A stretch of DNA of 64,000 nt, taken from positions 24,275-88,274 of the forward strand of contig JAFVCV010000003.1 in NCBI GenBank assembly GCA_017478965.1, written 5' to 3'. Positions within the stretch are counted from its first letter, which is position 1. Each line of letters opens with the position of its first letter. This document shows positions 18,881 through 33,233 of this stretch, one piece after another. The DNA comes from Ruminococcus sp. (lineage in GTDB: Bacteria; Bacillota; Clostridia; Oscillospirales; Ruminococcaceae). The notes beneath the pieces were generated by a model. That model searched no databases and had not been told where the DNA came from. It was given only the letters and a program-made list of their open reading frames with translations. The translations under genes and the position numbers were made by a program.

Positions 18881-18892
18881 ATAATGCTGCTG

Positions 18893-18921
18893 CGCCGGCG
18901 GGGGACTGCCGGCGTTTTTTT
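18893..18921 (+). terminator. Terminator ending the lipid-type cluster
   Basis: CGCCGGC-8-GCCGGCG followed by seven T's, directly after the phosphatidyltransferase stop. Confidence 0.88.
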
Positions 18922-18926
18922 AGGCG

Positions 18927-18944
18927 GTTAGTTATGGCTAATGT
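18927..18944. repeat. GTTAG-type repeat, copy 1
   Basis: GTTAGTTATGGCTAATGT. It agrees at 13 of 18 positions with copy 2 at 19124-19141 and flanks the iron-permease promoter. It may be a regulator site. Confidence 0.35.
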
Positions 18945-19018
18945 GTACAAAAAGAGTCGAAATGAAATGCTTTTTTTGTTTCTGCAAACAAATTATTGTT
19001 AACTAAAAATGAATTCTC

Positions 19019-19047
19019 TTGACTTACAACTGGCAGTGTGATACTAT
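19019..19047 (+). promoter_or_regulatory. Promoter of iron-uptake operon
   Basis: TTGACT, 17 bases, TACTAT, with a leader of about 185 bases before the FTR1 gene. Confidence 0.7.
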
Positions 19048-19052
19048 ATTTT

Positions 19053-19071
19053 TTAGGTTAGCGGCCCCTGA
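19053..19071. promoter_or_regulatory. Possible DtxR/IdeR-type iron box
   Basis: TTAGGTTAG, then a poorer second half with CCTGA, right after the -10. The first half equals the known iron-box half-site TTAGGTTAG; the second half is weak. The iron-uptake genes downstream support the idea. Confidence 0.35.
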
Positions 19072-19081
19072 GCGGTCCATG

Positions 19082-19108
19082 AAAAAGTTGGCTTTATGCC
19101 GACTTTTT
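19082..19108 (+). terminator. Leader terminator (possible attenuator)
   Basis: AAAAAGTTGGC-TTTAT-GCCGACTTTTT, an 11-bp stem with one G-T pair and a T-run, lying inside the leader between promoter and FTR1 gene. Confidence 0.6.
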
Positions 19109-19123
19109 GTATTTTAGGGCATA

Positions 19124-19141
19124 GTTAGCTGTGGTTAACTT
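19124..19141. repeat. GTTAG-type repeat, copy 2
   Basis: GTTAGCTGTGGTTAACTT, similar to copy 1 at 18927-18944; it lies after the leader terminator. Confidence 0.35.
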
Positions 19142-19238
19142 ACTCGCCAGGTTTCCGGAAGATACAGGGAACGGCTGCACCAAAGTTAGCCTTGTCAAAC
19201 TTTAAAGAGGCGAATACCTCAGCGGGAGGAATAGAGAA

Positions 19239-20858
19239 ATGTCATTTAAAAAGACCGCACTTACTGCGGTGCTGTCGCTGATGATGGCGATGCTTATACC
19301 GGTTTTCGGCATAACTGCCCACGCTGCGACGGATTACATACCCACATGGGACGAGTACAAGGTATCGGGCAACCCCATCGACACCTGGAACGATAAGGCA
19401 AACGCCATCGACAAGGTCCTGGAGGCCTCCTATCAGCTCTACTCTCAGGGCGATCAGGCCGAAGCCTACACGGCTGTGCTCAATACCTACAATTTTTACT
19501 ATGAGACCTCTGGCTTCGAGCGCAACGTCAACGGATATTCCGGCTCGGAGGTCAGCAAGGCCGAGCTGAGCTTCAAGACGGCGAGAAAGTCTGTAAAAAA
19601 AGGCGCTCCCATCGAGGAGGTGAGGGTGAATTATGAGGCCCTCAGTGAGATACTCCATATCCAGGCCAATCACCTTGACGGTCTGGGCGATACGGGTTCC
19701 TCGGGCCTGACCTTCGGGGAGGGCGCTCCCGCAGCGCAGAACACTACGGTGCAGACCGGCGAGAGCCAGACCGGAGACAGCGGCAGCACAACGCCTCTTT
19801 CCAGCGGCACCACCAGCGGCTGGGTGACTTTTGCGTCATGCTTTGCCATTATCCTCCGTGAGGGTCTGGAGGCCATACTTGTCGTAGGGGCTATCATCGC
19901 CTATCTGGTCAAGTCCGGCAACAGGGACAAACTCAAGCACGTTTATATCGGCTGCATTGCGGCCATCGGCGCAAGTTTCCTCTGTGCATGGCTGCTGAGC
20001 CTGCTGAAACTTGCTAATACCGCCAACCAGGAGATAATCGAGGGCGTTACCGCACTGACTGCGGTGCTGGTACTGTTCTATGTGAGCAACTGGATGGTCT
20101 CGAAGGCAGAGGCGGATACCTGGAACAAGTACATCGACGACCAGGTCAAGATGTCTGCCGAGACAGGCAGCGTTTTCACCCTGGCATTCACAGCTTTCCT
20201 TGCAGTGTTCCGTGAGGGCGCAGAAGTTATACTCTTCTATCAGCCTCTTCTCAGTGACGCTAAGAGCATGAGCTACGTCTGGGGCGGCTTCGGCGTGGGC
20301 TGCGTGGTGCTTGCGGTGGTGTTCCTCTGCATAAGGTTCCTGAGCGTAAAGCTGCCTATAAGGCCGTTTTTCCTTGGCACCAGCATACTGATGTTCATAA
20401 TGTCCATATCCTTCCTTGGTGCGGGCATCAAGGAGCTCATCGAGGGAGACGTCATCGACATGACCTCGCCCGACTGGCTCCAGGCTATAATACCTTTCAA
20501 CGACGTTCTCAACGTTCTTGGCATCTATCCTGTCCTTGAAACTCTGATACCGCAGCTGATACTTATTTTTGTAACTCTGATGATATTCGTCATGCAGAAG
20601 TACAAGGAGAAGAATAAGAACGAGGCTGGTATCCTTGCCATCATATTCGGCGGCCTGGGCGGCCACAAGTTCTACCTCGGAAAGTACGGACAGGGCCTTA
20701 TCTGCGTTGCTTTCTGCTGGTCGGGCATACCTGAGCTGCTGGGCGTCATTCAGGGCATACACTATCTGACGGAGACTAAGGAACAGTTTGAGAACGAGCT
20801 TCTTCCGAAAAAGAAGGAGCCAAAGAAAAAGGCCGTAAAAAAGGCCGCAAAGACATGA
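19239..20858 (+). CDS. FTR1-family iron permease with C-terminal TM2 domain
   Basis: 539 residues. A signal peptide (1-30, ending AHAA) and a helical outer domain (about 35-165) precede a Ser/Thr linker. The FTR1 membrane core begins near 195 with REGLEAI, and a second REGAEVI lies near 328; these REGxE motifs bind iron. After seven helices, a TM2-type domain follows (about 460-510: GGLGGHKFYLGKYGQG), then a Lys-rich tail. It should import ferric or ferrous iron. The TM2 addition is not part of usual FTR1. It is the first gene of a long operon; P19 follows. Confidence 0.9.
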   Translation: MSFKKTALTAVLSLMMAMLIPVFGITAHAATDYIPTWDEYKVSGNPIDTWNDKANAIDKVLEASYQLYSQGDQAEAYTAVLNTYNFYYETSGFERNVNGYSGSEVSKAELSFKTARKSVKKGAPIEEVRVNYEALSEILHIQANHLDGLGDTGSSGLTFGEGAPAAQNTTVQTGESQTGDSGSTTPLSSGTTSGWVTFASCFAIILREGLEAILVVGAIIAYLVKSGNRDKLKHVYIGCIAAIGASFLCAWLLSLLKLANTANQEIIEGVTALTAVLVLFYVSNWMVSKAEADTWNKYIDDQVKMSAETGSVFTLAFTAFLAVFREGAEVILFYQPLLSDAKSMSYVWGGFGVGCVVLAVVFLCIRFLSVKLPIRPFFLGTSILMFIMSISFLGAGIKELIEGDVIDMTSPDWLQAIIPFNDVLNVLGIYPVLETLIPQLILIFVTLMIFVMQKYKEKNKNEAGILAIIFGGLGGHKFYLGKYGQGLICVAFCWSGIPELLGVIQGIHYLTETKEQFENELLPKKKEPKKKAVKKAAKT

Positions 20859-20926
20859 TATGAACCGCCTGTATACGGACGGTCTACATATAACAAGCAG
20901 TCATAATTATGAAGGAGGAATTTTTA

Positions 20927-21559
20927 ATGACTAAGAAAAAGCTTGTGGGCATAGCTCTGGCAGCTATGATGGCTATGAGCATGGCAGCCTGCGGCAGCAC
21001 TGACGACAGCAAGGCTGACACTGCCAGCAAGAGCGAGGGTTCCGACGCAGTAGTCGAGGATACCCCCAACGCTGATGACGGCGCAGGATTTACCGAGTAT
21101 CCTATCTTTGAGGACGAAGAGGTAGGTTTCCTGAACGTATCCGCTGTATACTTCCAGCCTGTACCTATGTCCAACGGCAACGAGAAGGTGGACGGTTTCA
21201 ACATTCACCTTGAGGCTGACGTTTCCGCTCTGGAGAACGACCTGGGCTTCGGCGTAGGCGACTGGGTGCCTTACATGACAGTTGATTACAAGATCACCGG
21301 CTCTGACGGATCTGTAGCTGCTGACGGCACATTTATGGTAATGAGCGCATCTGACGGTCCGCACTACGGTGCTAACGTGGCTCTGCCCAATGCTGATACC
21401 TACAGCATCGAGTTCCAGTTCCACAACCCCGAGGAGAACGGCTATCTGCTCCACACCGATGCAGAAACAGGCCCTGGCGGGACCTTCGACAAGTACTTTG
21501 CCGACGGCAACCTGAAGGTGACCTTTGACGGCTGGGACTACGTTCCTCAGGAGTGGTAG
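20927..21559 (+). CDS. P19/Tpd-type periplasmic iron-binding lipoprotein
   Basis: 210 residues from the ATG at 20927, which follows AAGGAGGAATTTTTA. The signal ends at a lipobox SMAAC, so the mature protein is held on the outer face of the membrane. It has the immunoglobulin-like layout of P19 proteins, with FNIHLEAD, VPYMTVDYKI, SDGPHYGANVAL and IEFQFHNP supplying His, Met and Asp-type ligands. P19 of Campylobacter works with FTR1 in iron uptake, and the same partner is next door. It ends at a hairpin (21598-21624) that may reduce read-through. Confidence 0.88.
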   Translation: MTKKKLVGIALAAMMAMSMAACGSTDDSKADTASKSEGSDAVVEDTPNADDGAGFTEYPIFEDEEVGFLNVSAVYFQPVPMSNGNEKVDGFNIHLEADVSALENDLGFGVGDWVPYMTVDYKITGSDGSVAADGTFMVMSASDGPHYGANVALPNADTYSIEFQFHNPEENGYLLHTDAETGPGGTFDKYFADGNLKVTFDGWDYVPQEW

Positions 21560-21597
21560 ACCCGCACAGGTAAATTTCCTTATCAAATTATCGCATT

Positions 21598-21624
21598 ATG
21601 CGCTGAGAATTTAGCTCAGCGCAT
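21598..21624 (+). terminator. Partial terminator or processing hairpin inside operon
   Basis: ATGCGCTGAG-7-CTCAGCGCAT, a perfect 10-bp stem; the T-run comes only eight bases later, so read-through is likely. Confidence 0.45.
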
Positions 21625-21709
21625 ATTGTGCGTTTTTGAATGTTAACAAAGGCAAACTATCGCCGCTCTGTCAACATTCAAAAGCGTCGGAGCGGAAAGG
21701 AGAAAGATC

Positions 21710-22984
21710 GTGTTAAAATATTTTGTTATGACCGTGGAGGCTATGGTCCTGGCGGCGGTGACAGTCGGAACTGTCAGAGGGTTTGTTTTCCTGACTGATG
21801 AACGCAGGGGAAAGCTCGCCGGTGCCATTGGCGCCGGAGTGGGCTTTGTGGCTGCGGCTGTGATGGCGATAATGAAAAACGCCACTACCAGGATCGACAC
21901 TTCCCTATGGAACCTGAGGATATTCACGCTCACTATGGTTCTGTCGCTGGCACTGATCGTTTTCGGCATTTTCAGAAAGAAAAAGATACCGGCTGGGGCC
22001 GTTTATATCTGCGGGGGACTTATCACGGCGCTGATGATATTCTATGTCCTGCCTGATGTGCTGGCCTACCCGTATCTTATACTTCTCACCGAGAAATCTG
22101 TGCTCTCCACCGGGTTCCTGCTCAAATGCGTGGGCATAGTTTTCGGAATTATACTTATCCTTGTGGCTCAGTCTGCGATCTATAACGGGACTGTACGTCT
22201 CAGCTCCTGGACCGCTTACGGCGTCTGCACTGCGGTGCTGCTCATCAACGCCGCCAGACAGTTCTGCGCAGTCCTCGGCATCATGCTCAATAAGCGTATG
22301 CTCGAAAAGCTGGATAAGGACCTCAAACACGATATCTTCGAGCTTGTGAAGTTCTCTTCAAATAACAGCAATATGTTCGTCTATGCTGCTGTTATCGCAG
22401 CTATGACTGTGCCTGCGGTCCTGTGGGTGAAAAGTCTCAGGGCCAGGGAGCCTTACGATAACCCGGCACAGAAAAGAAAGCTGCGCAAGAAGTGGAGAGT
22501 CACCAGGACCTATGCGACCCTGATGCTGTGCTGTCTGATCTTTGGCATGGTGACGTTTACCACTCTTGATGCCGTTGCGAACCGTGAGATACCCCTTTCG
22601 CCTGTGGAGGACGCTAAGATAGACAGCGGCTATGTGGTGGTCCCCTTCGAGCAGGTGGATGACGGACATCTGCACCGTTTCGCCTATGTTACCGAAAACG
22701 ATATCCAGATAAGGTTCATCGTTATCAAAAAGCCGAATTCCTCCGCTTACGGCATTGGTCTTGACGCCTGTGACGTTTGCGGCGAGACAGGCTATTTCGA
22801 GAAGGACGGTCAGGTGGTCTGCAAGCTCTGCGACGTTGTTATGAACATACAGACCATAGGCTTCAAGGGCGGCTGCAACCCCATAGTTATCCCCTATGAG
22901 ATACGTGACGGACAGATCTTCGTTCCCATCGAGGGACTGCTTGAAAACGAAAAGATGTTCAGAAACAACCGTATGCGCAGCTAG
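21710..22984 (+). CDS. DUF2318 (FtrD-like) Fe-S-containing membrane protein
   Basis: 424 residues from the GTG at 21710, which has GGAAAGGAG upstream. About eight membrane helices fill residues 1-300. The C-terminal outer domain has the DUF2318 cysteines CDVCGETGY, CKLCD and KGGCNP near residues 355-390, which could hold a metal or an iron-sulfur site. In Campylobacter and related P19 loci the equivalent membrane protein follows FTR1 and P19 and is needed for full iron uptake. I infer a redox role at the outer face, perhaps passing electrons to reduce iron. Confidence 0.85.
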   Translation: MLKYFVMTVEAMVLAAVTVGTVRGFVFLTDERRGKLAGAIGAGVGFVAAAVMAIMKNATTRIDTSLWNLRIFTLTMVLSLALIVFGIFRKKKIPAGAVYICGGLITALMIFYVLPDVLAYPYLILLTEKSVLSTGFLLKCVGIVFGIILILVAQSAIYNGTVRLSSWTAYGVCTAVLLINAARQFCAVLGIMLNKRMLEKLDKDLKHDIFELVKFSSNNSNMFVYAAVIAAMTVPAVLWVKSLRAREPYDNPAQKRKLRKKWRVTRTYATLMLCCLIFGMVTFTTLDAVANREIPLSPVEDAKIDSGYVVVPFEQVDDGHLHRFAYVTENDIQIRFIVIKKPNSSAYGIGLDACDVCGETGYFEKDGQVVCKLCDVVMNIQTIGFKGGCNPIVIPYEIRDGQIFVPIEGLLENEKMFRNNRMRS

Positions 22985-22996
22985 GAGGTAAGGACT

Positions 22997-24289
22997 ATGT
23001 TTTTCAGAATGATTAGAGGCACTCTGTTCAGGCAGTGGAAAAAGATGCTCATGATAGCCTTTACCATCGCCCTGGGCGCTTCCCTGGCCTCTGCGATGCT
23101 CAGCGTTATGCTGGACGTTGGCGATAAGGTGAACCAGGAGCTGAAGACCTACGGCGCCAACATAACCGTTGTGCCTAAGGAGAACTCGGTGCTCAGTGAG
23201 CTTTATGAGGTGGAGGACGGAGGAGTCTCCGGAGCCTACCTGAGGGAAGATGAGCTGGGAAAGATAAAGACTATCTTCTGGGCATTCAATATCGTCGATT
23301 TTGCGCCCTTCGTGAATGTGGACTGCACTCTGGAGGACGGCACTGAGGTGCAGTGCGTAGGCAGCTGGTTCGACCACCATATGGACCTTCCCACCGGGGA
23401 AACTCTTGATGCGGGCGTAGTCAGCCTGAGGAGCTGGTGGGAACTGGAAGAAGGCCAGTGGCTGGACGAGCAGCTGCTCAGTGACAGCGCAGATGCGGCC
23501 ATGGTCGGCAAAGACCTGGCGCAGAAGCTTGACCTTAAACCCGGGGACACCCTCCGTGTGAGCGGACCCGCCGCTGACAGGGAGCTGAGAGTGGCCGGCA
23601 TTTACGACGCAGGCGGCACTGAAGATATGCAGATATATCTCCAGCTGGACACTGCACAGTCCCTTGCAGACCTGGAGGGCTGCGTTGACAGGATAGAGGT
23701 CAGCGCCCTTACCACTCCGGAAAACGAGCTTTCCGAAAGGGCCGCCAAGGACCCTTCGTCCCTGACCGTGGCACAGATGGAGACCTGGACCTGCACGGCC
23801 TACGCCAGCTCCATCTGCTATCAGATACAGCAGGTCATTACGGATTCCGTGGCCGCTCCTGTGAGACAGGTGGCTGACTCCGAGGGCGCTATACTCAGCA
23901 AAACACAGCTGCTGATGATACTCATAACTATCCTGAGCCTTATCGGCGCCGCTCTTGGCATATGCAATCTGGTGACGGCCAGCGTTATGGAGAGGGCGCA
24001 GGAGATAGGACTTATGAAGGCTCTGGGCGCCCAGAACCTCTCCATCGCTCTGCTGGTGCTCTGTGAGATCGCCATAACTGCGGTATTCGGCGGCGTGGGC
24101 GGCTTTTTCGCAGGTTTCGGCTTTGCCCAGCTCATAGGCCATACGGTGTTCGGCTCGGCTATCGAGATGCGGCCCATGGTGGTGCCTATAGTTGCTGTGC
24201 TGGTGGTGATAGTGACCCTCATCGGCTCTATCCCGGCCATAAAGATGCTCCTTGGGCTTAGGCCTACGGAAGTTCTCCACGGCAGATAA
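22997..24289 (+). CDS. ABC transporter permease (FtsX type) of iron-uptake locus, first
   Basis: 430 residues. It has an N-terminal helix (about 15-40), an outer domain (NITVVPKENS, FDHHMDLPTGE) and three C-terminal helices with the FtsX core (ERAQEIGLMKALGAQNLSIA). AGGAGGTAAGGACT stands before the ATG. Together with the next two genes it forms a MacB-like complex, as in P19 loci of Campylobacter. Such pumps usually work by mechanotransmission across the membrane rather than by plain transport; their job in iron uptake is not settled. Confidence 0.88.
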   Translation: MFFRMIRGTLFRQWKKMLMIAFTIALGASLASAMLSVMLDVGDKVNQELKTYGANITVVPKENSVLSELYEVEDGGVSGAYLREDELGKIKTIFWAFNIVDFAPFVNVDCTLEDGTEVQCVGSWFDHHMDLPTGETLDAGVVSLRSWWELEEGQWLDEQLLSDSADAAMVGKDLAQKLDLKPGDTLRVSGPAADRELRVAGIYDAGGTEDMQIYLQLDTAQSLADLEGCVDRIEVSALTTPENELSERAAKDPSSLTVAQMETWTCTAYASSICYQIQQVITDSVAAPVRQVADSEGAILSKTQLLMILITILSLIGAALGICNLVTASVMERAQEIGLMKALGAQNLSIALLVLCEIAITAVFGGVGGFFAGFGFAQLIGHTVFGSAIEMRPMVVPIVAVLVVIVTLIGSIPAIKMLLGLRPTEVLHGR

Positions 24290-24307
24290 AAAGCGGAGGC
24301 AGGTAAA

Positions 24308-25468
24308 ATGAAGAAAAGAAAAATGTTCATAAGAATGATAACGGCCTCGCTGATGAGAAGGCGTTCACGAATGATAGTGGCGCTTTTGTCCATCGCCATC
24401 GGTGCGACTATACTGTCGGGGCTGGTGTCTATCTATTATGACGTGCCGAGACAGATGGGCGCACAGTTCCGTAACTACGGTGCAAATATGATATTCACCG
24501 GTGAGGACGGGAGCCTGGGTCTTGACGAGGTCATTGCCGGGGAGAAGAAGATAGACCCCGCAGAGCTGGTGGGCGCTGCGCCCTACCGCTACGAGAATGT
24601 CAGGATAAACGATATCCCTGTGGTGGCTGCCGGAACAGACCCGCAGGGAGTTCAGAAGACAAGCCCCTACTGGAGGGTCGAAGGCAGCTGGTTCTCCGGC
24701 GGCGGCGAACTGCTGGTGGGAGCATCGGTGGCCGAGTCCTTCAGGATAAAGTCCGGTGACGTCATCGACGTTTCCTTTACCCCGGCAGCGCAGGAGGATG
24801 AGTCCGGTGAAGAGGAGTTTGTCATGGACAACTTCAAGACCTTCACCGTCATGGGTATACTTCAGACCGGCGGCTCGGAGGAGAATTACATTTATATGTC
24901 CTTAGATGACCTGAGGGAGCTGACCGGCACTGAGGGGAGCATTGATGTGGCAGAGCTGAGCGTTTCGGCAGGTCAGGAGGAGCTGTCGGCCTATATCGAC
25001 GCTATCAACAGCGGCGTAAAGGGCGTCCACGCCAGCCTGGTCAAGAGAGTGACAGCCTCGGAGGCCACGGTCCTGACGAAATTACAGGCTCTTGTGCTGC
25101 TGGTGACTATCGTGGTCCTGGCGCTGACGATGATATGCGTTGCCACTACCATGACGGCCGTGGTAGCGGAGCGCCGCAAGGAGATAGGTCTGAGAAAAGC
25201 CATCGGCGCATCGGATAAGAGCATTATCCAGGAGTTCATGGGTGAGAGTATGCTCCTGGGGCTGCTGGGAGGAGCGCTGGGGTCGGTGCTGGGTTATGTG
25301 TTCGCACAGCAGGTCAGCATCAATGTGTTCAGCAGCTCCATCTCGTTCAGGCCGGTGCTGGTCCCTGTTACTGTCATAGCGTCGATAGCAGTCACGGGTA
25401 TCTCCAGCCTTATGCCTATAAGGAGCGCTACTGACGTTGACCCGGCCATGGTACTGAAAGGCGAATGA
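24308..25468 (+). CDS. ABC transporter permease (FtsX type) of iron-uptake locus, second
   Basis: 386 residues. It has the same plan as its neighbour: an N-terminal helix (about 20-42), an outer domain with ANMIFTGEDGSLG, and an FtsX core with ERRKEIGLRKAIGASDKSI. It starts 18 bases after the first permease and shares with it the NYGANM/TYGANI motif at the start of the outer domain, so the two are likely an ancient duplication forming a heterodimer. It works with the ATPase at 25512. Confidence 0.88.
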   Translation: MKKRKMFIRMITASLMRRRSRMIVALLSIAIGATILSGLVSIYYDVPRQMGAQFRNYGANMIFTGEDGSLGLDEVIAGEKKIDPAELVGAAPYRYENVRINDIPVVAAGTDPQGVQKTSPYWRVEGSWFSGGGELLVGASVAESFRIKSGDVIDVSFTPAAQEDESGEEEFVMDNFKTFTVMGILQTGGSEENYIYMSLDDLRELTGTEGSIDVAELSVSAGQEELSAYIDAINSGVKGVHASLVKRVTASEATVLTKLQALVLLVTIVVLALTMICVATTMTAVVAERRKEIGLRKAIGASDKSIIQEFMGESMLLGLLGGALGSVLGYVFAQQVSINVFSSSISFRPVLVPVTVIASIAVTGISSLMPIRSATDVDPAMVLKGE

Positions 25469-25511
25469 GCCTTGGGCTGACTGCAAAACTCTGAAAAAAG
25501 GAGAATGGACA

Positions 25512-26201
25512 ATGAGCTTACTGGAACTAAAAAACGTTTATAAGATATACGGCGACCTTCACGCCCTGGACGATGTGAGCCTGAAAGTGGAGAAGGGCGA
25601 GTGGGTGTCCATAATGGGACCGTCCGGCTCGGGAAAAAGCACCATGATGAACATTATCGGCTGCATGGATAAGCCCAGCAAGGGGGAGGTCCTCCTTGAC
25701 GGGGTCGATATCTCAAAGGAGTCAAAAAAGAACCTGACCAATATCCGCCGGGACAAGATAGGGCTTATCTTCCAGCAGTTTCACCTGGTCAATTATCTGA
25801 CTGCGGTGGAGAACGTGATGCTGGCACAGTACTACCACAGCATACCCGACGAGAAGGAGGCCCTGGAGGCTCTGGAGAGAGTGGGCCTGGGGGACAGGGC
25901 AAAGCACCTTCCCAGCCAGCTGTCCGGCGGCGAGCAGCAGAGGGTCTGTGTTGCCAGGGCGCTGATAAACTACCCTGAGGTGATCCTTGCAGACGAGCCG
26001 ACGGGCAATCTGGACGAGGCCAATGAGGAGATAGTTGTGGAACTTTTCCACAAGCTCCACAACGAGGGCACCACCCTTATCGTCGTCACCCACGACCCTG
26101 AGGTGGCTGAAGTGGCCCAGAGGACTCTGGTCCTGAGGAGCGGAAAACTCAGCAAGGAGATAGTGAACGAGAATTTCACCGGCAAGATACATTTTGACTG
26201 A
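25512..26201 (+). CDS. ABC transporter ATP-binding protein of iron-uptake locus
   Basis: 229 residues. Walker A GPSGSGKST at about residue 38, signature LSGGEQQRVCVARAL, Walker B VILADEPTGNLD and VTHDPEV are all present. AAAAAAGGAGAATGGACA precedes the ATG. It is a LolD/MacB-like ATPase and the partner of the two permeases just upstream. The gene order FTR1, P19, membrane protein, permease, permease, ATPase equals that of the Campylobacter P19 locus. Confidence 0.92.
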   Translation: MSLLELKNVYKIYGDLHALDDVSLKVEKGEWVSIMGPSGSGKSTMMNIIGCMDKPSKGEVLLDGVDISKESKKNLTNIRRDKIGLIFQQFHLVNYLTAVENVMLAQYYHSIPDEKEALEALERVGLGDRAKHLPSQLSGGEQQRVCVARALINYPEVILADEPTGNLDEANEEIVVELFHKLHNEGTTLIVVTHDPEVAEVAQRTLVLRSGKLSKEIVNENFTGKIHFD

Positions 26202-26216
26202 GCAGGAGGGATAAAG

Positions 26217-26651
26217 ATGAAAAAGGCGACAGCAGTTTTAGCGCTGGTCTTCGTGACGGCACTTTCTGCCTGCGGCAGCACCACCTATAAGGACGGCACC
26301 TACAAGGCCAAGAGCGCCGAGTATGTCAGCGACGACGGCACTGAGGACGGCAACGGCTACGGCGAGGTGGAGATCACCATTACCGACGGCAAGATTAGCG
26401 ATGTTAAATTCCTGACCTATGAGCTGGACGGTACTCTGAAAGACGAGGAATACGGCAAGGAGAACGGCGAGATAAAGAACAAGGATTTCTACACCAAGGC
26501 CCAGCGGGCAAGAGCCGCCTGCGAGAACTATGCGGAGCAGCTCAGGGCGAAGGGGAACATCGACGACGTTGACGGAGTCAGCGGAGCCACGGTGAACTAT
26601 AACGAATTCAAGGAGGCTGTTGCCGCTGCCCTGAAGCAGGCGGAGGAATGA
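26217..26651 (+). CDS. FMN-binding-domain lipoprotein
   Basis: 144 residues with a lipobox LSAC (Cys19). The FMN_bind domain shows YKDGTYKAKS, GEVEITITDGKISDVKF and, near residues 119-125, DGVSGAT, the motif whose Thr is joined to FMN by the flavin transferase ApbE. The mature protein should therefore be a flavinylated electron carrier on the outer face of the membrane. AGGAGGGATAAAG precedes the ATG. In known P19 loci this position is held by thioredoxin-like proteins, so a flavoprotein may do the redox work here. No ApbE is seen in the window. Confidence 0.88.
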   Translation: MKKATAVLALVFVTALSACGSTTYKDGTYKAKSAEYVSDDGTEDGNGYGEVEITITDGKISDVKFLTYELDGTLKDEEYGKENGEIKNKDFYTKAQRARAACENYAEQLRAKGNIDDVDGVSGATVNYNEFKEAVAAALKQAEE

Positions 26652-27169
26652 GGTCAGTCCTGCGGCACGGGGCCGTGACGGTCCTTGGGCTTTTTATCCT
26701 GATCGGACTGCCTTTTTTCAGCTCGGACTATTTTAAACGTTTAAGAAACGGCGAGGACGCAGTTTCAGGAGCAACGGTGGCCCTTGACAAGCCGTCGGGG
26801 GAGTATGTGGTCTTCATAAACCGGGACCTTCACACTGACAGCAAAAATCTCAGTATCTGGGAGGGATTTTTCGCAAGAGGTGAGGACGAAGGCATTTATA
26901 ACGTTTTCGAGGACCTGAGCTGCACTGTTGCCGACAGCGACCCATCGGGACTGGAGATGGCCAGGAGCTTTCAGTCCCTACTGCCCGAGAACCAGATGAA
27001 GGTCCGCACTGAGAACATCGTGCTTATGCTGTCGAAGGCAGAAAACGGCAGGTTCGACCTTATCATCATGTCCAGGGAGCTTGCAGAGGTCTATAAGGCG
27101 GACCGCATCGCAGAGCAGACAGGGGCATTGATGCTGACAGTTTCGCAGGAGCAGGAGGAGCAGAAATGA
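26648..27169 (+). CDS. Single-pass membrane protein with a flavinylation-like motif
   Basis: 173 residues, with the ATG overlapping the previous stop by 4 bases. One membrane helix lies at about 8-26 and is followed at once by DAVSGATV (residues 37-44), which matches the D-x-x-S/T-G-A-T flavinylation motif with Thr43 as the possible FMN-bearing residue. The rest (about 50-170) is an outer or soluble domain that I do not recognise; it has no clear FMN_bind fold. I infer a membrane-anchored flavin carrier between the lipoprotein and the fumarate-reductase-like complex. It could also be a degenerate member of the FMN_bind family. Confidence 0.6.
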   Translation: MRSVLRHGAVTVLGLFILIGLPFFSSDYFKRLRNGEDAVSGATVALDKPSGEYVVFINRDLHTDSKNLSIWEGFFARGEDEGIYNVFEDLSCTVADSDPSGLEMARSFQSLLPENQMKVRTENIVLMLSKAENGRFDLIIMSRELAEVYKADRIAEQTGALMLTVSQEQEEQK

Positions 27170-27714
27170 GAAGAGCCAACGCTTTTATAAGTATGCTTAT
27201 CATGGCACTTTTCCTGTTCCATGGGATAATGGGGGGCTTTCAGCTGGCCGGGGTCATTCCGGGCGGATCGGGGCTGATGAAGGTCATGGCCTGGATAATG
27301 ACCGTGCTCATCGCCGTCCATGGGATCATAGGCATAAAGCTGACCGCTGATACATTCAGGACGATAAAGAAGTCCGGCGCAGGATACTATAAGGAAAACA
27401 GGCTGTTCTGGCTCAGGCGTGCAAGCGGCTTTGCCATTATGGTCTTTATCCTTTTTCACATACTTATTTTTCTGGGAAAAAACGGCGATGCTTACAGGCT
27501 CAGTCTGTTTGCGGTCCCGCAGCTCATCTCGCAGATACTTCTGGTCATTTCAGTTGCCCTGCACGTCATCACTAACGTCAGGCCCATGCTGCTGAGTTTC
27601 GGTACAAAAAGCTGGAAAGACCTGGGACTTGACCTCTGCATGATACTGGCGGGGGCAATGCTTTTCACAGGTGTGTGCTTTATCGTCTATTATATCAGGT
27701 GGAAGGTCTTCTGA
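27166..27714 (+). CDS. Fumarate reductase/succinate dehydrogenase cytochrome b-like membrane subunit
   Basis: 182 residues, five membrane helices. His residues stand inside four helices (LFHGIMGG, AVHGIIG, LFHILIF, ALHVITN), which could bind two b-type haems. NVRPMLL at the end of helix four is also seen in such anchors. The start overlaps the previous stop by 4 bases, and the flavoprotein and iron-sulfur subunits follow. It would hold the complex on the inner face of the membrane and exchange electrons with quinol or, here, perhaps with the flavin carriers upstream. Confidence 0.75.
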   Translation: MRRANAFISMLIMALFLFHGIMGGFQLAGVIPGGSGLMKVMAWIMTVLIAVHGIIGIKLTADTFRTIKKSGAGYYKENRLFWLRRASGFAIMVFILFHILIFLGKNGDAYRLSLFAVPQLISQILLVISVALHVITNVRPMLLSFGTKSWKDLGLDLCMILAGAMLFTGVCFIVYYIRWKVF

Positions 27715-27727
27715 CGGGGTGATCTTA

Positions 27728-29293
27728 ATGGAAGAGATAAATATTCTTGGAGCCGGATTAGCCGGACTTTCGGCGGCGATCACTCTGGCTCAGGGCGGTC
27801 AGAAGTGCAGACTTATCTCAGCCCAAAGCTCGGAACGGGCCCAGAGCGTCATGGCCGAGGGCGGGATAAATGCGGCCCTTGATCTGATGGGCGAGGGTGA
27901 CAGTCCTGAGCTGCATTTTGAGGACACCATGAGGGGCGGGGCCTATCTGGCCGACGAGGAGGCAGTGAGAAGACTGACCTTTGGCGCACCGGATACTGTC
28001 AGGTGGTTAGCCGGCCTGGGGGTCCCTTTCAATATGAAGGACGGCAGGCTCGTCCAGCGCAGCTTCGGCGGGCAAAAGAAAAAGCGCACCGCCTACGCCA
28101 GGAGCAGCACCGGAAAAATGATAATGTCAGCGCTTATCGACGAGTGCAGAAAATATGAGTGCTCCGGGCTGGTAAAGCGCTTTGACCACCACGGATTTCT
28201 TGGGCTGAACGTCCGTGAGGACAGCTGTCTTGGACTGAGAGCCAGAGATATCTACAGCGGCGAAGTCATGGACTTCAGCGGACGGGTCATAATGTGCTGC
28301 GGAGGTCCGGCCGGGCTTTTCCCGGGTTTGACCACAGGGACGGCTGCCAACAGCGGTTATGCGGCCGCAAGGCTTTTTGAACAGGGCGTGGTATTCGGCA
28401 ATCTGGAGATGCTCCAGTATCACCCTACCACAGTTGCTATCCCCGACAAGCGCTGTCTTGTCACCGAGGCCGCCAGGGGCGAGGGCGGCAGACTGTTCAT
28501 AATGCGAAACGGCAAAAGATGGTATTTTATGGAAGAAAAATATCCTGAGCTAAAAAACCTCATGCCAAGGGACGTGGTGGCAAGGGAGATGTATTTCGTC
28601 CGTAAAGAGCCGGACAGTAGCGGAGAGGTGATGCTCGATATGACCGGTCTTGACGGACTGGTCTGGCGCAGCAGACTTCCGGACCTGAGGGCGGAGCTTA
28701 TCCACTACCTTGGCATAGACCCGGCAAAGGAACCGGTGCCGGTCAGGGAGGGTATACATTATTTCATGGGCGGGATATACACTGATATCGCTCATAGGAC
28801 CAGCCTGAGGGGACTTTATGCCGCAGGGGAATGTACCTGTCAGTACCACGGGGCAAACCGCCTCGGGGGAAATTCCATGCTGGGGGCAGTGTTCGGCGGA
28901 AGGACGGCGGCTGAGGATATCCTTTGCGACGGCGATCAGGCAGCTGACTTTAACGGCGAAAGGGACAGCGGGTCTGTGACGGAGAACGAGCCTTCGGACG
29001 CAGTGAAGCTTGAACTGGGCGAAATTTTGTACAGCGGCCTAGGCATAGTCCGCAGCGCCGAAGGCTTATGTAACGCACTTGACAGGCTTGACGAGCTGGA
29101 GGAGCGCCGTGGGACCTTCCCCAGGACAAGACTGGCAAGGGCCATGCTGCTGTCTGCCATGGAGAGGAAGGAGAGCCGGGGCGCCCATTACCGTGAGGAT
29201 CACCCAGAAAGGGACGAGAAACTCGGAAGACCCACTCTTAGCCGGTATAAAAACGGCGTCATAGAGGTAAGCATAGGGGAGGGCTTTGAATGA
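27728..29293 (+). CDS. Fumarate reductase/succinate dehydrogenase flavoprotein subunit
   Basis: 521 residues from the ATG at 27728. The dinucleotide fold LGAGLAGLSAA opens the protein. Active-site blocks match the FrdA/SdhA family: QYHPTTV, TEAARGEGGRLF, RDVVAREM, HYFMGGIYTD and GECTCQYHGANRLGGNS. The His that binds FAD covalently in FrdA (RSHT) is replaced by Gln (RAQS), so FAD is probably not covalently held. It reduces fumarate or oxidises succinate, or handles a related acid. The iron-sulfur subunit overlaps its end by 4 bases. Confidence 0.9.
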   Translation: MEEINILGAGLAGLSAAITLAQGGQKCRLISAQSSERAQSVMAEGGINAALDLMGEGDSPELHFEDTMRGGAYLADEEAVRRLTFGAPDTVRWLAGLGVPFNMKDGRLVQRSFGGQKKKRTAYARSSTGKMIMSALIDECRKYECSGLVKRFDHHGFLGLNVREDSCLGLRARDIYSGEVMDFSGRVIMCCGGPAGLFPGLTTGTAANSGYAAARLFEQGVVFGNLEMLQYHPTTVAIPDKRCLVTEAARGEGGRLFIMRNGKRWYFMEEKYPELKNLMPRDVVAREMYFVRKEPDSSGEVMLDMTGLDGLVWRSRLPDLRAELIHYLGIDPAKEPVPVREGIHYFMGGIYTDIAHRTSLRGLYAAGECTCQYHGANRLGGNSMLGAVFGGRTAAEDILCDGDQAADFNGERDSGSVTENEPSDAVKLELGEILYSGLGIVRSAEGLCNALDRLDELEERRGTFPRTRLARAMLLSAMERKESRGAHYREDHPERDEKLGRPTLSRYKNGVIEVSIGEGFE

Positions 29294-30021
29294 AGACTGA
29301 GCTTAGGATACTAAGGCGCAGGAGCCGTGAGGAGGAGCCATTCTGGCAGAGCTTTATCTATGAGGCTGAGGACGCAAATGCGGCGGTGTCAACAGCGCTG
29401 AATGCCCTGAATTCCCGGGAGGAGCTGACTGACACTGAGGGGCGCAGAGCAGACCCGATCAGGTGGGAATGCAGCTGTCTGCAAAAAAAATGCGGGGCCT
29501 GCGCTATGGTAATAAACGGCAGGCCGGCCCTTGCCTGCGACAGCAAGCTGAGCGGTCTGGGCCCGGTGGTCACTCTGGGACCGCTGCGCAAATTCCCGGT
29601 CATAGCGGACCTTATAACGGACCGCAGCGCAATGAGGGAGGTCCTCAGGGAGATGAAGATATTTCTGAGGGCACAGACAGAAGTCAGCGAGTCCATGACT
29701 GACATTGCATATGAAGCCTCGGGCTGCCTGCAATGCGGCTGCTGTCTGGAGATCTGTCCGAATTTTTGTACCGGAGGAAAGTTCGGAGGCATGGCGGCAG
29801 CACTGCCGGCCGGCCGGCTCATAGAGGAAATGGACGGGGAGGGCAGAGAGGAGCTTTTGAAGGAGTACCGCAAAAGGGTCTATGAGGGCTGCGGTAAGTC
29901 ACTTGCCTGCCGGGACATCTGTCCGGCGGGGCTTGACGTGGAAAAGCTCATGGTCAATTCAAATGCCGCCGCCGTATGGAAGGCCCTGGATTTTCTGAGG
30001 AAAAAGCGCCATGAAGTCTGA
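29290..30021 (+). CDS. Fumarate reductase/succinate dehydrogenase iron-sulfur subunit
   Basis: 243 residues. The [2Fe-2S] ligands lie in CLQKKCGAC and a later Cys in RPALAC (about residues 57-80). The second cluster region has CLQCGCCLEICP near 150 and CGKSLACRDICP near 205, giving sites for [4Fe-4S] and [3Fe-4S] clusters. It passes electrons between the flavoprotein and the membrane subunit. Its 3' end overlaps the next gene by 11 bases, so the operon goes on. Confidence 0.92.
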   Translation: MKTELRILRRRSREEEPFWQSFIYEAEDANAAVSTALNALNSREELTDTEGRRADPIRWECSCLQKKCGACAMVINGRPALACDSKLSGLGPVVTLGPLRKFPVIADLITDRSAMREVLREMKIFLRAQTEVSESMTDIAYEASGCLQCGCCLEICPNFCTGGKFGGMAAALPAGRLIEEMDGEGREELLKEYRKRVYEGCGKSLACRDICPAGLDVEKLMVNSNAAAVWKALDFLRKKRHEV

Positions 30022-30937
30022 AAGGGCCGTGATCGTTCTGTTCAGTGCGGCCGTCCTGCTCACATCGGCGGCGGGACTTTATGCTGCGGCAGTCAGGGAG
30101 GGGCCTGCTCCACGCTATCAGGTCCGGCAGGATCTGAGTATACATTTCAATAACGCAGATGCGGTGATCGACCGGGTCAGAGAATGTCTCAAAGCACGGC
30201 AGGAGCTGATAAGGATAACCTACACCTCCCACAGCAGCAACCTTGAGGACCTTGACGAGCTGGTCAGAGAGCTGATGGAGTTTGCCTGCTGCGAGACCGG
30301 GGCTGCCGATGAAGGAGACTATCTGCGCTGTCAGATAGGCGGTTATGATGCCGGCTTCACTCAGGAGGAGAGGGACGGACTTTTCACCTATGAGTTAAAC
30401 ATCAGGCCCATCTATTTCACTGACGCTGAGCAGGAGGAAGAGGTCAGCAGGGCGGTGGAAAAGGTCATAGCCAGCCTTGGCCTGCCTGAAGGGGCCGGGG
30501 AGGAAGAGAAGATAAGAGCGGTCTACGACTGCGTTTGTTCCAATGTGTCCTACGACTGGGTACACCGCCGAAGCGAAAACTACCGACTGAGGTCGGCGGC
30601 ATACGGTGCGCTCATCTACGGCAGGGCCACCTGTCTGGGATATGCGGTGACGGTGTACAGGCTCCTGCGGGAGCTTGGAGTAGGCTGCCGGGTAGTTACG
30701 GGGGACGCCGTTGACGCTGAGACCGGGGAGCGTGAATATCACGCCTGGGTAATTATCAGGCTTGATGGGAAGTGGTATAACGCCGACCCTACCTGGGACA
30801 GCCGCAGCGGGACCCACAGCTTTTTTCTGAAAAGTGATGAGGACTTCGGGGACCATATCCGAAAAACAGGCTCTCCGGCCGGCTACGGTGCAGAAGACTA
30901 TCCGATGGCCACGGAAAGTTACGGGAAAGGAAAGTAA
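30011..30937 (+). CDS. Membrane-anchored transglutaminase-like protein
   Basis: 308 residues. A signal or anchor helix covers 5-27. The transglutaminase-like core has the Cys in GRATCLGYA, the His in EYHAWVII and the Asp in NADPTWD, in the right order at about residues 208, 242 and 258. Relatives act as peptidases or cross-link proteins outside the cell. It overlaps the iron-sulfur subunit and lies 3 bases before the DUF4418 gene, so it is co-transcribed. Its link with the redox genes is unknown. Confidence 0.85.
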   Translation: MKSERAVIVLFSAAVLLTSAAGLYAAAVREGPAPRYQVRQDLSIHFNNADAVIDRVRECLKARQELIRITYTSHSSNLEDLDELVRELMEFACCETGAADEGDYLRCQIGGYDAGFTQEERDGLFTYELNIRPIYFTDAEQEEEVSRAVEKVIASLGLPEGAGEEEKIRAVYDCVCSNVSYDWVHRRSENYRLRSAAYGALIYGRATCLGYAVTVYRLLRELGVGCRVVTGDAVDAETGEREYHAWVIIRLDGKWYNADPTWDSRSGTHSFFLKSDEDFGDHIRKTGSPAGYGAEDYPMATESYGKGK

Positions 30938-30940
30938 AAA

Positions 30941-31360
30941 ATGAATGATAAGAAAAATGTGAAAGAAACTGTTCTTGCCGCTGCTATCCTGATATGCAGC
31001 ATATGCCTGTGCGCTGGGGCAAAGCTCGTATTCCACGCCTGCGGTCCTAAGGAGGACGGCAGTTATATGGCCTGCCACTGGGCAGAGCAGGCAATTTTCG
31101 GCATAGGCTGCGCTATGACTGCGATATCGGTGTTTCTGATCGCAGTAAGGAACAGGGGCATGAAAAGGGGTCTGGCCCTTTCGCTGCTTCCCTGCGGGGC
31201 GGTCTGTGCGCTGATACCCAATATACTTATAAAGCTCTGCATGATGACTGAGATGCGCTGCCATACCGTCATGCGTCCGGCGGCCGTTATCTTCGGCCTT
31301 ATCACCGCAGTGCTGGGGACGGTTTATGCGGTGATCTGCAAGGAGGAGAAGAAGGACTGA
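30941..31360 (+). CDS. DUF4418-type small membrane protein
   Basis: 139 residues with four membrane helices. Conserved polar spots are HACGPKEDGSYMACHWAE after helix one and MRCHTVMRPA before helix four, with paired Cys and His facing one side. That pattern fits my memory of the DUF4418 family, which often neighbours FtsX-type ABC pumps. The function is unknown. Cys and His could bind metal or haem. Its stop shares a base with the next permease start. Confidence 0.7.
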   Translation: MNDKKNVKETVLAAAILICSICLCAGAKLVFHACGPKEDGSYMACHWAEQAIFGIGCAMTAISVFLIAVRNRGMKRGLALSLLPCGAVCALIPNILIKLCMMTEMRCHTVMRPAAVIFGLITAVLGTVYAVICKEEKKD

Positions 31361-32556
31361 TGAAAAGTCTGGCGGTAAAAAATCTGAAGGGCAGGTCTGT
31401 CAGAACGGCTGTCCTAATGACCCTGGCGGCGCTGCTGTCCTTTACGGTCCTGGGGGGAACGCTCGTAGTCCGCAGCCTGGATAAGGGCTTAGTATCCCTT
31501 AAAGCCAGACTTGGAGCAGATGTTATGGTGGTCCCCAAGGAGGCCACTATGAAAAAGAAATTCGAGGACATGATCCTTCAGGGGACCACCGGGTATTTCT
31601 ATATGGATATGAGCAGGGCCGAAGAGGTCATGGAACGTGAGGGCGTAGGCCAGGTCTCGCCGCAGTTCTTCTTAGCGTCCACAAGCTCCAGTTGCTGCTC
31701 CATACCTGTGCAGCTGATAGGCTTTGAACCTGAAACAGACTTCACCGTGTCACCATGGATAAAGCGCACATATGGCGGCCAGCTGGGCTTTTGCGACATC
31801 GTTGCCGGCAGCGACCTGAACGTCTTCGTAGGCGATAAGCTGAGCTTTTACGGAGTGGAGTGTACAGTGGCGGCCAAGCTTGAAAAGACAGGCACCAGCT
31901 ACGACACCACTGTCTTTGCCAGCGGCGAAACCGTCAAGGAGCTTATCCGGTCCTCCCTGGAAAAGGGAATGAACGATTTTGCGGACATCGACCCGGAGCG
32001 GTCCGTGTCCTGCCTGATGATAAATGCCGCCGACGGCACCTCCCCGGAGGAGCTGGTGAATGATATCAATATCCATGTCAAGAAAGTCAAGGCCTATAAG
32101 ACCGGCGACATGATAAAGGGCATCTCAGACAGCCTGGGAGGAGTCTCCAGAATGATAGGGCTGCTCATAGCGGCAGTCTGGGTCTTAGGGATAGTGATAC
32201 TGTCCCTGGCATTTACCATGAGCGTCAACGAGCGCAGGAAGGAATTCGCCGTCCTGAGGGTCATCGGGGCCTCACGTGGGAGCCTTGCGGGACTGGTCCT
32301 GAAAGAGGCGCTGCTGACCTGCACTCTGGGGAGCCTCGCAGGGGCCGCCCTGGGTCTGCTGGTGCTGCTGCCGTTCAATGGCTTTATAGAGGAGACTCTG
32401 GCTCTGCCGTTTTTGCTGCCGGGGGTGGGGAGCATAGCTGGCTTTACCGCAGGGGCAGTTATACTGTCGGTGCTTTCCGGAGCTGCCGCCGCTGCCATAA
32501 GCGCCCTCAGGGTCAGCCGTATCGACACAGGACTGATACTCAGGGGGGATAATTGA
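31360..32556 (+). CDS. ABC transporter permease, FtsX/MacB type
   Basis: 398 residues. N-terminal helix at about 17-40, an outer domain starting GADVMVVPKEATMKKKFE, and a C-terminal core of three helices with ERRKEFAVLRVIGASRGSLA. The outer-domain opening resembles that of the permeases at 22997 and 24308, so it is a third member of the same family in one operon. It pairs with the ATPase at 32556. Confidence 0.88.
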   Translation: MKSLAVKNLKGRSVRTAVLMTLAALLSFTVLGGTLVVRSLDKGLVSLKARLGADVMVVPKEATMKKKFEDMILQGTTGYFYMDMSRAEEVMEREGVGQVSPQFFLASTSSSCCSIPVQLIGFEPETDFTVSPWIKRTYGGQLGFCDIVAGSDLNVFVGDKLSFYGVECTVAAKLEKTGTSYDTTVFASGETVKELIRSSLEKGMNDFADIDPERSVSCLMINAADGTSPEELVNDINIHVKKVKAYKTGDMIKGISDSLGGVSRMIGLLIAAVWVLGIVILSLAFTMSVNERRKEFAVLRVIGASRGSLAGLVLKEALLTCTLGSLAGAALGLLVLLPFNGFIEETLALPFLLPGVGSIAGFTAGAVILSVLSGAAAAAISALRVSRIDTGLILRGDN

Positions 32557-33233
32557 TGGAACTGAGAGCGGAAAAAATATACCGGGATTTTATCAGAGAG
32601 AGCCGCAGCACCAACCGTTTCACCGCTGTCAAGGAGACTTCTATGCTCCTTGCGCCCGGAAAGCTGACAGTGCTGATGGGCCGCTCCGGCAGCGGCAAGA
32701 CCACACTGCTTAATATGCTGTCCGGACTTCTTTGTCCCACCGGAGGCAGTATCACCGCCGACGGACAGGACCTTTATGCCATGAGCGACAAGGAGCTGTC
32801 AAGGTTCAGAAACCTCCATATGGGCGTTATTCCTCAGGGACAGACCGCTGTACACAGCCTTGACGTCAGGGAGAATATACTTCTTCCATTTACATTTTAC
32901 GGCGATGTGCCGGACGAAAAGCAGGCTCAGGAGCTTATGGAAAGGCTGGATATCGCCCACCTCGCAGCCGCTATGCCCTCGGAGCTGTCAGGCGGGGAGC
33001 TGAGACGAATGGCCATAGCCCGAGCTCTTGTGCGAAGGCCGGAGCTGATTTTTGCAGACGAGCCTACAGGGGACTTAGACGATGAGAACACCGCAGAGGT
33101 GTTCAGGGTCCTGAAAGAATACGCCGCTGAGGGTGGTTCAGTGCTGACTGTCACCCACGAGAACGACGCTAAGTCATATGCCGACGTACTGCTGACGATG
33201 AGCGCAGGAACAGTCAGCCAGGAAATTGTATAA
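32556..33233 (+). CDS. ABC transporter ATP-binding protein, MacB/LolD type
   Basis: 225 residues. Walker A GRSGSGKTT, signature LSGGELRRMAIARAL, Walker B LIFADEPTGDLD and VTHENDA are present. The ATG at 32556 shares one base with the permease stop, and GGGGGGA lies before it. It is the last gene of the long operon that starts at 19239; a strong terminator follows. Confidence 0.92.
   Translation: MELRAEKIYRDFIRESRSTNRFTAVKETSMLLAPGKLTVLMGRSGSGKTTLLNMLSGLLCPTGGSITADGQDLYAMSDKELSRFRNLHMGVIPQGQTAVHSLDVRENILLPFTFYGDVPDEKQAQELMERLDIAHLAAAMPSELSGGELRRMAIARALVRRPELIFADEPTGDLDDENTAEVFRVLKEYAAEGGSVLTVTHENDAKSYADVLLTMSAGTVSQEIV

Follow-up and report, generated by a model that had tools for sequence, protein, structure and literature searches.

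A complex II module within a P19/FTR1-type iron operon of Ruminococcus and its possible role in electron transfer to fumarate

A run of 15 genes in the genome of a Ruminococcus species (assembly GCA_017478965.1, contig JAFVCV010000003.1; 2.69 Mb, 92.8% complete) was analysed in a 64-kb stretch of DNA, hereafter referred to as the window, and is a P19/FTR1 (Fet-type) iron operon with an inserted complex II module. The run occupies positions 19239-33233 and all of its 15 open reading frames (ORFs) lie on the + strand. The module consists of ORF8, a cytochrome b anchor (cytB) and the fumarate reductase-like subunits FrdA and FrdB (FrdAB), and sits between the gene of a flavin mononucleotide (FMN)-binding lipoprotein (FMNb) and the DUF4418-FtsX-ABC (ATP-binding cassette) genes. 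Earlier work already describes the iron core of such clusters and their FMN gene; the quinone-free complex II module inside the operon is new. It appears to be a quinone-independent complex II in a host that appears to make no quinones. The module is very probably coupled to iron uptake, and the flow of electrons is probably inward, from the iron/flavin side to fumarate. The explanation as a whole, an iron-regulated P19/FetMP operon in which a quinone-independent complex II carries electrons inward to fumarate, is in our view evenly balanced between being right and wrong.

The iron operon and its conservation

By their Pfam matches, the first six genes have the order FTR1-P19-FtrD-FtsX-FtsX-ATPase, and an earlier note on this DNA, made from the sequence, was correct in recognising here the order of the Campylobacter P19 locus. 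They encode an FTR1/FetM-type iron permease (19239-20858; Pfam FTR1 and TM2) with an N-terminal extension, a C-terminal TM2 domain and two REXXE motifs (REGLE at 207 and REGAE at 325); a P19/FetP lipoprotein-like Fe2+ transport protein (20909-21559; PF10634, E 5.7e-42); an FtrD/FetA-like membrane protein (21710-22984; PF10080, E 7.3e-29); two FtsX/MacB-type permeases (22997-24289 and 24308-25468; Pfam); and ABC ATPase 1 (25512-26201; Pfam). The FtrD protein carries the cysteine motif CxxC-x13-CxxC-x14-C, which is that of PMC6083913 (here and below, published work is cited from the accessible parts of the papers). By its REXXE motifs, P19, FtrD motif and six-gene order the run is a P19/FetMP-Fet cluster, with iron transport as its predicted function. 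Pfam matches over the gathering score were obtained for 13 of the 15 ORFs, and a multicopper oxidase was not among them.

The gaps between the genes, in order, are 50, 150, 12, 18, 43, 15, -4, -4, 16, -4, -11, 3, -1 and -4 bases, in agreement with the tightly packed, same-strand run of 15 genes described earlier, of which the widest gap had been put at about 150 bases (21560-21709; measured, 150). At the junctions between the iron and the Frd parts the gaps are 15, -4, -4, 16 and -4 bases. The fetMP-fetABCDEF (P19) locus of Campylobacter jejuni shares with the window the order FTR1, P19, DUF2318/FtrD, two FtsX and ATPase, and the FtrD cysteine pattern; it differs in that its thioredoxins FetE/F are replaced here by the FMN_bind lipoprotein, that ORF8, the cytochrome b, FrdAB and a second FtsX/ABC set are added, and that the candidate operator of the window is unlike the Fur box.

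Conservation was examined in a sample of 396 genomes of the family, in which FtrD was over the cut-off in 26 genomes, at 28 places; apart from the window 27 places remain, of which 25 were examined (all except those of G105 and G366). The FTR1/P19 cluster is present in 16 of these genomes, the window included, and eight of the other ten genomes with FtrD, which were examined, have no FTR1 or P19 at E<=1e-5. A short form of FtrD (~165-235 aa) without FTR1/P19 was observed at L047, L049 and L051-L058, often with a neighbour of ~800 aa. Twelve of the 15 other cluster genomes keep the order FTR1-P19-FtrD-FtsX-FtsX-ABC-FMNb-ORF8-cytB-FrdA-FrdB-(TG)-D4418-FtsX-ABC, where TG denotes a transglutaminase gene and D4418 DUF4418. 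The transglutaminase gene lies upstream of FTR1 at L044 and was not found at L048, a contig that breaks off within FTR1. The L050 contig stops within ORF8, and a second contig from the same genome (L186) begins in the module.

A profile of the cytochrome b anchor matches 19 of the 396 genomes, namely 16/16 of those with the P19 cluster and 3/380 of the others (Fisher p 7.5e-26, a value that ignores kinship), and one of these three (G353, L182) carries the FMNb-ABC2 part of this operon on one contig. The co-occurrence of iron, flavin and Frd genes in related genomes, proposed earlier as a check, is thus found, and a chance neighbourhood is ruled out by the conserved order and the co-occurrence. 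The view that these parts belong together is upheld by the same two observations, the short-spaced run and a candidate operator in the promoter.

Components of the module and its flavin partner

The FMN_bind lipoprotein (26217-26651; PF04205, E 2.5e-10), noticed previously as such, carries the flavinylation motif DGVSGAT, and of 52 relatives 50 match SGAT/TGAT by pattern, or 51 if L105 is included by eye. An ApbE gene, the presence of which the earlier note had wished to see checked, is located elsewhere in the window genome, and ApbE matches occur in 14 of the 15 other cluster genomes. With its FMN_bind domain, the [ST]GAT motif and ApbE in the genome, the lipoprotein fits the ApbE-flavinylated class and covalent attachment of a flavin is predicted. 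The earlier statement that P19 loci normally continue with thioredoxin-like genes holds for most Proteobacteria but not for Firmicutes, in which an FMN-binding protein is already the seventh gene (PMC6083913, PMC8238504). The Gram-positive P19 clusters with an FMN-binding gene (260 clusters; Meheust 2021) resemble the window in the iron core, FMN_bind and an ApbE in the genome, as far as the accessible text describes them, and differ in that the window operon holds a candidate electron system of its own.

In the region L059 8011-10574 (G000:C2), the ApbE gene of the window genome adjoins that of an FMN_bind membrane protein of 487 aa (open frame, 493 aa). Its membrane domain has weak similarity to MsrQ/MamZ and is joined by a linker rich in Ser to an FMN_bind domain with DAVSGAT, and the protein possibly represents another extracytosolic electron route. 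As this frame is the only other FMN_bind match in the genome, no RnfG was found and RNF was rejected as the electron source.

ORF8 (26648-27169) has no Pfam match and is predicted to comprise one membrane helix, a disordered linker with DAVSGAT and a single lobe resembling a solute-binding protein. The second flavinylation motif reported for the run is hence present in this protein, but that form is not conserved: among the homologues DxxxxA[TS] occurs in 56/59 and [ST]GA[TS] in 13/59. An assignment of ORF8 as an FMN_bind protein was rejected, there being no FMN_bind Pfam match in 60 members and the fold being the solute-binding-protein-like lobe. A search of PDB sequences with the ORF8 profile gave nothing relevant. 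The ectodomain shares its fold with RUMGNA_00914 of Ruminococcus gnavus (PDB 3noh), which carries VTGAT and is a sequence homologue of the ORF8 of L183/L184, there also adjoining cytB-FrdAB. It differs in that it was deposited as a putative peptide-binding protein and that its relatives in L183/L184 adjoin a P-type ATPase, not FTR1; no relevant paper on RUMGNA_00914 or 3noh was present among the matches listed. At L183 (G357) and L184 (G367), the ORF8 branch of which includes 3noh, ORF8-cytB-FrdAB adjoins ArsR-like and HMA P-type ATPase genes, and CsoR-like and P-type-ATPase-like genes (by eye) lie ~3 kb upstream of the module at L181 (G288). These neighbours are candidates for a second metal-transport partner of the module.

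FrdA (27731-29293) is a fumarate reductase-like flavoprotein without a signal peptide, which has the catalytic residues His231/Arg249/His343/Arg377 and Gln38 in place of the His that links flavin adenine dinucleotide (FAD). Its start is probably the ATG at 27731, as in the relatives, and not the GTG at 27671 of the mechanical ORF; it is closest to Ruminococcus sequences, with 72% identity to Ruminococcus albus 8. FrdB (29290-30021) has the cysteines for [2Fe-2S], [4Fe-4S] and [3Fe-4S] clusters, the patterns being present in 73/73 relatives. The flavoprotein and iron-sulfur subunits recognised earlier are hence both supported by their residues. The relatives of FrdA were the best 80 of 556 from a profile search of named genomes, collected by the peptide patterns V[LM]AEGGIN and E[MF][LI]QYHPT, which lie near and not on the Gln position; 79 of the 80 gave a readable FrdA, eight of them identical to family rows. 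The motifs QYHPT, RGEGG, H[YF]xMGG and NRLGGNS occur in 79, 76, 77 and 76 of the 79, respectively. The FAD-linking position is Gln in 84/84 distinct FrdA (92 rows: 13/13 and 79/79) in the register of the HMMER alignment, and in five more (L180, L181, L183-L185). The His of covalent-FAD complex II is thus absent from this FrdA.

The covalent FAD link is needed for succinate oxidation and raises the FAD potential by ~100 mV (PMC10238741, PMC9557727), and noncovalent-FAD relatives reduce fumarate and cannot oxidise succinate (PMC9557727). Therefore, fumarate reduction would be favoured over succinate oxidation in an FrdA without this His. A gene of the lactate/malate dehydrogenase (LDH/MDH) family lies between the iron-cluster ABC2 and FrdAB in L132 and L136 (L136 by eye), and directly before FrdAB on a short contig in L140, while an aspartase-like gene follows FrdB in L129. 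These neighbours suggest a supply of fumarate.

An identity of FrdA as L-aspartate oxidase was rejected, its score being 404.6 bits with the SdhA profile PRK08641 vs 314.9 with the best NadB model; a separate NadB-like gene (L061, named by eye) is present in the genome. FrdA begins MEEINILGAG (by eye), has no FMN_bind match and is without the traits of extracytosolic flavinylated fumarate reductases. The extracellular flavinylated fumarate reductase of Listeria (PMC8238504) is similar in that a fumarate-reductase-like flavoprotein is linked to an FMN-binding domain, and different in that the window FrdA starts at the FAD-binding fold, has neither a signal peptide nor an FMN domain, and is partnered by FrdB and a membrane anchor.

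The anchor (27166-27714) has five helices and invariant His residues at 19, 52, 98 and 133, which accords with the haem-b-like anchor of the earlier note. Its match to Sdh_cyt (E 0.002) is below the cut-off; with four haem His and the class-B fold it is predicted to be a dihaem-type cytochrome b. The quinol:fumarate reductases of Wolinella succinogenes and Desulfovibrio gigas (class B anchor) share the FrdA active-site residues, the three Fe-S clusters and the five-helix anchor fold with four His. The window differs from them in being without the FAD-linking His, in a shorter anchor, in a Glu-C66 position that is rarely Glu, in the absence of any quinone gene found, and in the extra ORF8 and FMN protein. 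Where Wolinella has Glu-C66, the residue is Glu in 2/61 and Gln in 31/61 of the anchors, the window having Gln (the register is that of a weak HMMER alignment). In Wolinella the change of Glu-C66 to Gln abolished growth on fumarate, and quinol binding can differ in D. gigas (PMC6175931). No UbiA-family protein was found at E<=0.001 in the window genome (92.8% complete) or in 12 of the 15 other cluster genomes, vs matches in all 14/14 control genomes. Neither an acidic Glu-C66 position nor quinone synthesis by the host, both of which quinol oxidation would call for, is indicated by these comparisons; uptake of quinone from outside may occur.

Promoter region and distribution

The promoter region (18927-19200) contains candidate iron-operator palindromes, GTTAG-N6-CTAAC, at 18927, 19124 and 19185 (one mismatch each) and at 19057 (two mismatches). 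In the whole window the one-mismatch palindrome is not above chance (12 vs 10.0 expected). Upstream of FTR1, it occurs (at up to one mismatch) in 53 copies in 22 of 27 stretches (51 copies and 21 of 26 when the duplicate locus L069 is left out) vs 0.2 in first-order shuffles; of the other spacers, spacer 10 gave nine copies and the rest 0 to 4. On contig C19 of the window genome, which also holds one of the genome's two DtxR-family matches, the palindrome stands without mismatch three times, next to DUF2325, DUF3793 and feoA genes. An exact copy also stands ~80 bases before a flavodoxin gene in G393, which its contig and FrdA identify as the R. albus 8 genome, and the palindrome recurs also beside a NuoE-like gene (loci surveyed: L198/L201, L188, L191, L192). 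As a genome-wide statistic the operator was rejected: the palindrome outnumbers the reversed control in the window genome (G000, 46 vs 12) and in G393 (61 vs 27) and does not do so in G374. The palindrome is neither the classical Fur nor the classical DtxR box. Since it also adjoins feoA in the same genome, iron control of the operon is likely, presumably with induction at low iron.

Consensus matches alone indicate a terminator-like hairpin after the upstream gene (18892-18915) and a promoter-like site at 19019-19047. The 150-nt gap between P19 and FtrD (21560-21709) is predicted to form two long hairpins (-54.3 kcal/mol, z -6.6), and the corresponding gap of relatives also shows structure (z between -1.1 and -4.7 for the 26 listed); it is perhaps an attenuator or an RNA-stability element. 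A riboswitch or other known RNA was rejected, no Rfam match reaching the gathering score (two were below it).

Beyond the family, FtrD was over the cut-off in 60 of 398 genomes of a phylum sample, in which, the window aside, 16 places have an FtrD frame of at least 375 aa over the cut-off and 14 of these were examined (not those of G629 and G720, and no shorter ones), while P19 occurred in seven of 391 genomes of a class sample, the window's included, and all six other places were examined. All 20 P19 loci so obtained have FTR1, P19, FtrD, both FtsX and the ATPase, and ten have the FMN gene at E<=1e-5. The second set of transport genes of the window consists of a DUF4418 membrane protein (30941-31360; PF14387, E 2e-24), FtsX-type permease 3 (31360-32556; Pfam) and ABC ATPase 2 (32553-33233; Pfam), and is preceded by a transglutaminase-like protein (30011-30937; PF01841, E 2.4e-15). 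DUF4418 occurs also in P19 clusters without FrdAB, and the six class loci (three from one genus) have D4418, FtsX3 and ABC2 with the iron genes and without FrdAB; the module would therefore have been added to a pre-existing iron cluster. Downstream of the run, at 34217-36253, lies a gene for a protein with GH11 xylanase, CBM4/9 and polysaccharide deacetylase domains.

The 80 FrdA relatives come mostly from rumen/gut metagenome-assembled genomes titled Ruminococcus, Lachnospiraceae, Clostridia and similar, with R. albus 8, a few Erysipelotrichaceae, one Flexilinea and one Acholeplasmatales. At least two iron genes within 11 kb are found for 51 of them, and the complete set of ten gene types, FTR1 through FrdA, for 39 (arranged differently in L123); for 19 the contigs are too short to tell. 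Ten have at least 3.5 kb upstream and are without two iron genes; L070, L115 and L132 among these still adjoin FMNb or D4418-FtsX3-ABC2, and L090, L107, L110, L112, L141, L144 and L145 are without such neighbours. A single origin of the iron linkage was rejected, as the FrdA tree mixes iron-linked and other rows with 12 label changes, at least nine of them forced by starred branches. The tree counts for little, however, because all rows off the free-standing list were called iron, including those on contigs too short to judge, such as L135, L137 and L139, and L132 was labelled free although it follows iron-cluster genes.

Electron flow, alternatives and significance

In the proposed mechanism the FMN lipoprotein, and perhaps ORF8, would collect electrons outside the membrane and pass them by direct flavin-haem contact to the dihaem cytochrome b and on to FrdB, from which they would reach the noncovalent FAD on FrdA and reduce cytosolic fumarate to succinate. 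The module would in this way oxidise the extracytosolic side of the iron machinery. Inward flow is preferred because noncovalent-FAD enzymes reduce fumarate only and because putative fumarate-supply genes adjoin FrdAB at some related loci. In yeast Fet3-Ftr1, the FTR1 permease takes Fe(III) after oxidation. By analogy, and since an oxidation/reduction mechanism has been argued for the C. jejuni locus, with FetE/F perhaps oxidases (PMC10783030), we tentatively suggest, as the first choice though at less than even odds, that Fe(II) is oxidised as the outer step so that FTR1 can take Fe(III). The resulting system, a strictly anaerobic iron oxidase-permease passing electrons of Fe(II) through flavin and dihaem cytochrome to cytosolic fumarate, is a rather unlikely proposal in this full form. 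It would be an anaerobic counterpart of Fet3-Ftr1, with which it would share a REXXE FTR1 permease coupled to an extracytosolic redox step, and from which it would differ in having no multicopper oxidase among the Pfam matches of the run and fumarate, not O2, as the acceptor.

Several observations weigh against the inward, iron-serving reading. At loci L034 and L042 the iron genes are retained and FrdAB is absent from the operon: only cytB-FrdAB is missing at L042, with ~750 bases without these genes in place, and ORF8-cytB-FrdAB and the transglutaminase gene at L034. The genomes of both encode cytB-FrdAB elsewhere; the relocated cytB-FrdAB of L181 (G288) has diverged, is preceded by an ORF8-like gene and likewise has Gln in place of the FAD-linking His. 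CytB, FrdA and FrdB occur in 0/20 of the P19 loci outside the family. One of the 15 cluster genomes has no ApbE match; UbiA is over the cut-off in two of the 15, with a weak match in a third; and the patterns that collected the FrdA relatives lie close to the Gln position. Five of the 27 upstream stretches are without the operator, and in G374 the palindrome is rarer than the reversed control (36 vs 74). No one-mismatch site lies within 400 bases upstream of the free-standing or relocated L090, L107, L110, L112, L129, L141, L144, L145, L180, L181, L183, L184 and L185 (two-mismatch sites precede L141, L144, L145 and L184), so that the module also has a life of its own; the operator is present at L115 and L123, which adjoin iron-cluster genes. 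A promoter-like match at 27664-27693, at the cytB/FrdA junction, could give extra expression of FrdAB; of the independent promoters between the iron and Frd parts that the earlier note named as grounds for doubt, it is the one match, against junction gaps of only -4 to 16 bases. For Fe(II) to donate electrons to an FMN at about -200 mV, the iron site would have to favour Fe(III) strongly. The direction is not fixed by the sequence comparisons on which the proposal rests, and the published models of the P19 locus speak of reduction (PMC6083913, PMC8238504).

The first alternative is shared control without direct contact, whereby cytB-FrdAB would be a general fumarate reductase, a fermentative sink made when iron is scarce. 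The free-standing loci without an operator at one mismatch agree with it, as does the flavodoxin gene of G393 with the same operator. The window FrdA may also be the only fumarate reductase of its type in the genome, because just three FAD_binding_2 matches cover most of the profile and the other two are the NadB-like protein and a divergent 568-aa frame. Yet an 11-iron complex would be a poor choice under iron limitation and would pay only if it served iron uptake; the FMN gene and ORF8 are kept beside cytB-FrdAB in most loci with enough sequence; and the module stands inside, not at the end of, the iron genes. We give this alternative a low probability.

Outward flow is similarly improbable. 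FrdAB would then oxidise succinate, driven by the membrane potential, and cytB would pass electrons to the outer FMN protein for the reduction of Fe(III) before uptake, much as the earlier note had proposed for electrons from succinate or quinol. The lack of the FAD-linking His, required for succinate oxidation, in 84/84 distinct FrdA (PMC10238741, PMC9557727) argues against it, as do the LDH/MDH-family or aspartase-like genes adjoining FrdAB in L129, L132, L136 and L140. Together with the absence of UbiA and the 2/61 Glu at the Glu-C66 position, the Gln of FrdA speaks against the earlier proposal, and the same evidence disfavours its variant with iron as an electron sink. A reductive reading (Liu 2018, Meheust 2021) may still apply to clusters without FrdAB. 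An ordinary quinol:fumarate reductase using menaquinone taken up from other microbes is very unlikely given the UbiA result here and in 12/15 others and the predominance of Gln (31/61) over Glu (2/61) at a position where Gln abolished growth of Wolinella on fumarate (PMC6175931).

No recognisable description of FrdAB in a P19 operon was present in the literature searched, the supplementary tables of Meheust 2021 lying outside its scope, nor did the accessible parts of that literature, which included PMC8238504, PMC11334425, PMC6083913, PMC10783030, PMC9557727, PMC10238741 and PMC6175931, contain the inserted complex II module, the operator or the directional inference. The operon that holds the candidate conduit is shared by dozens of genomes from rumen and gut, that of the isolate R. 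albus 8 among them, and the module may be the missing redox partner of the P19/FTR1 importer in apparently quinone-less bacteria. If the proposed mechanism is true, a complex II homologue would work without quinone, as a transmembrane electron wire; fumarate would be tied to iron acquisition, an FTR1-type permease may couple to an anaerobic redox reaction, and fumarate would serve FTR1 in anaerobes as O2 does in yeast.

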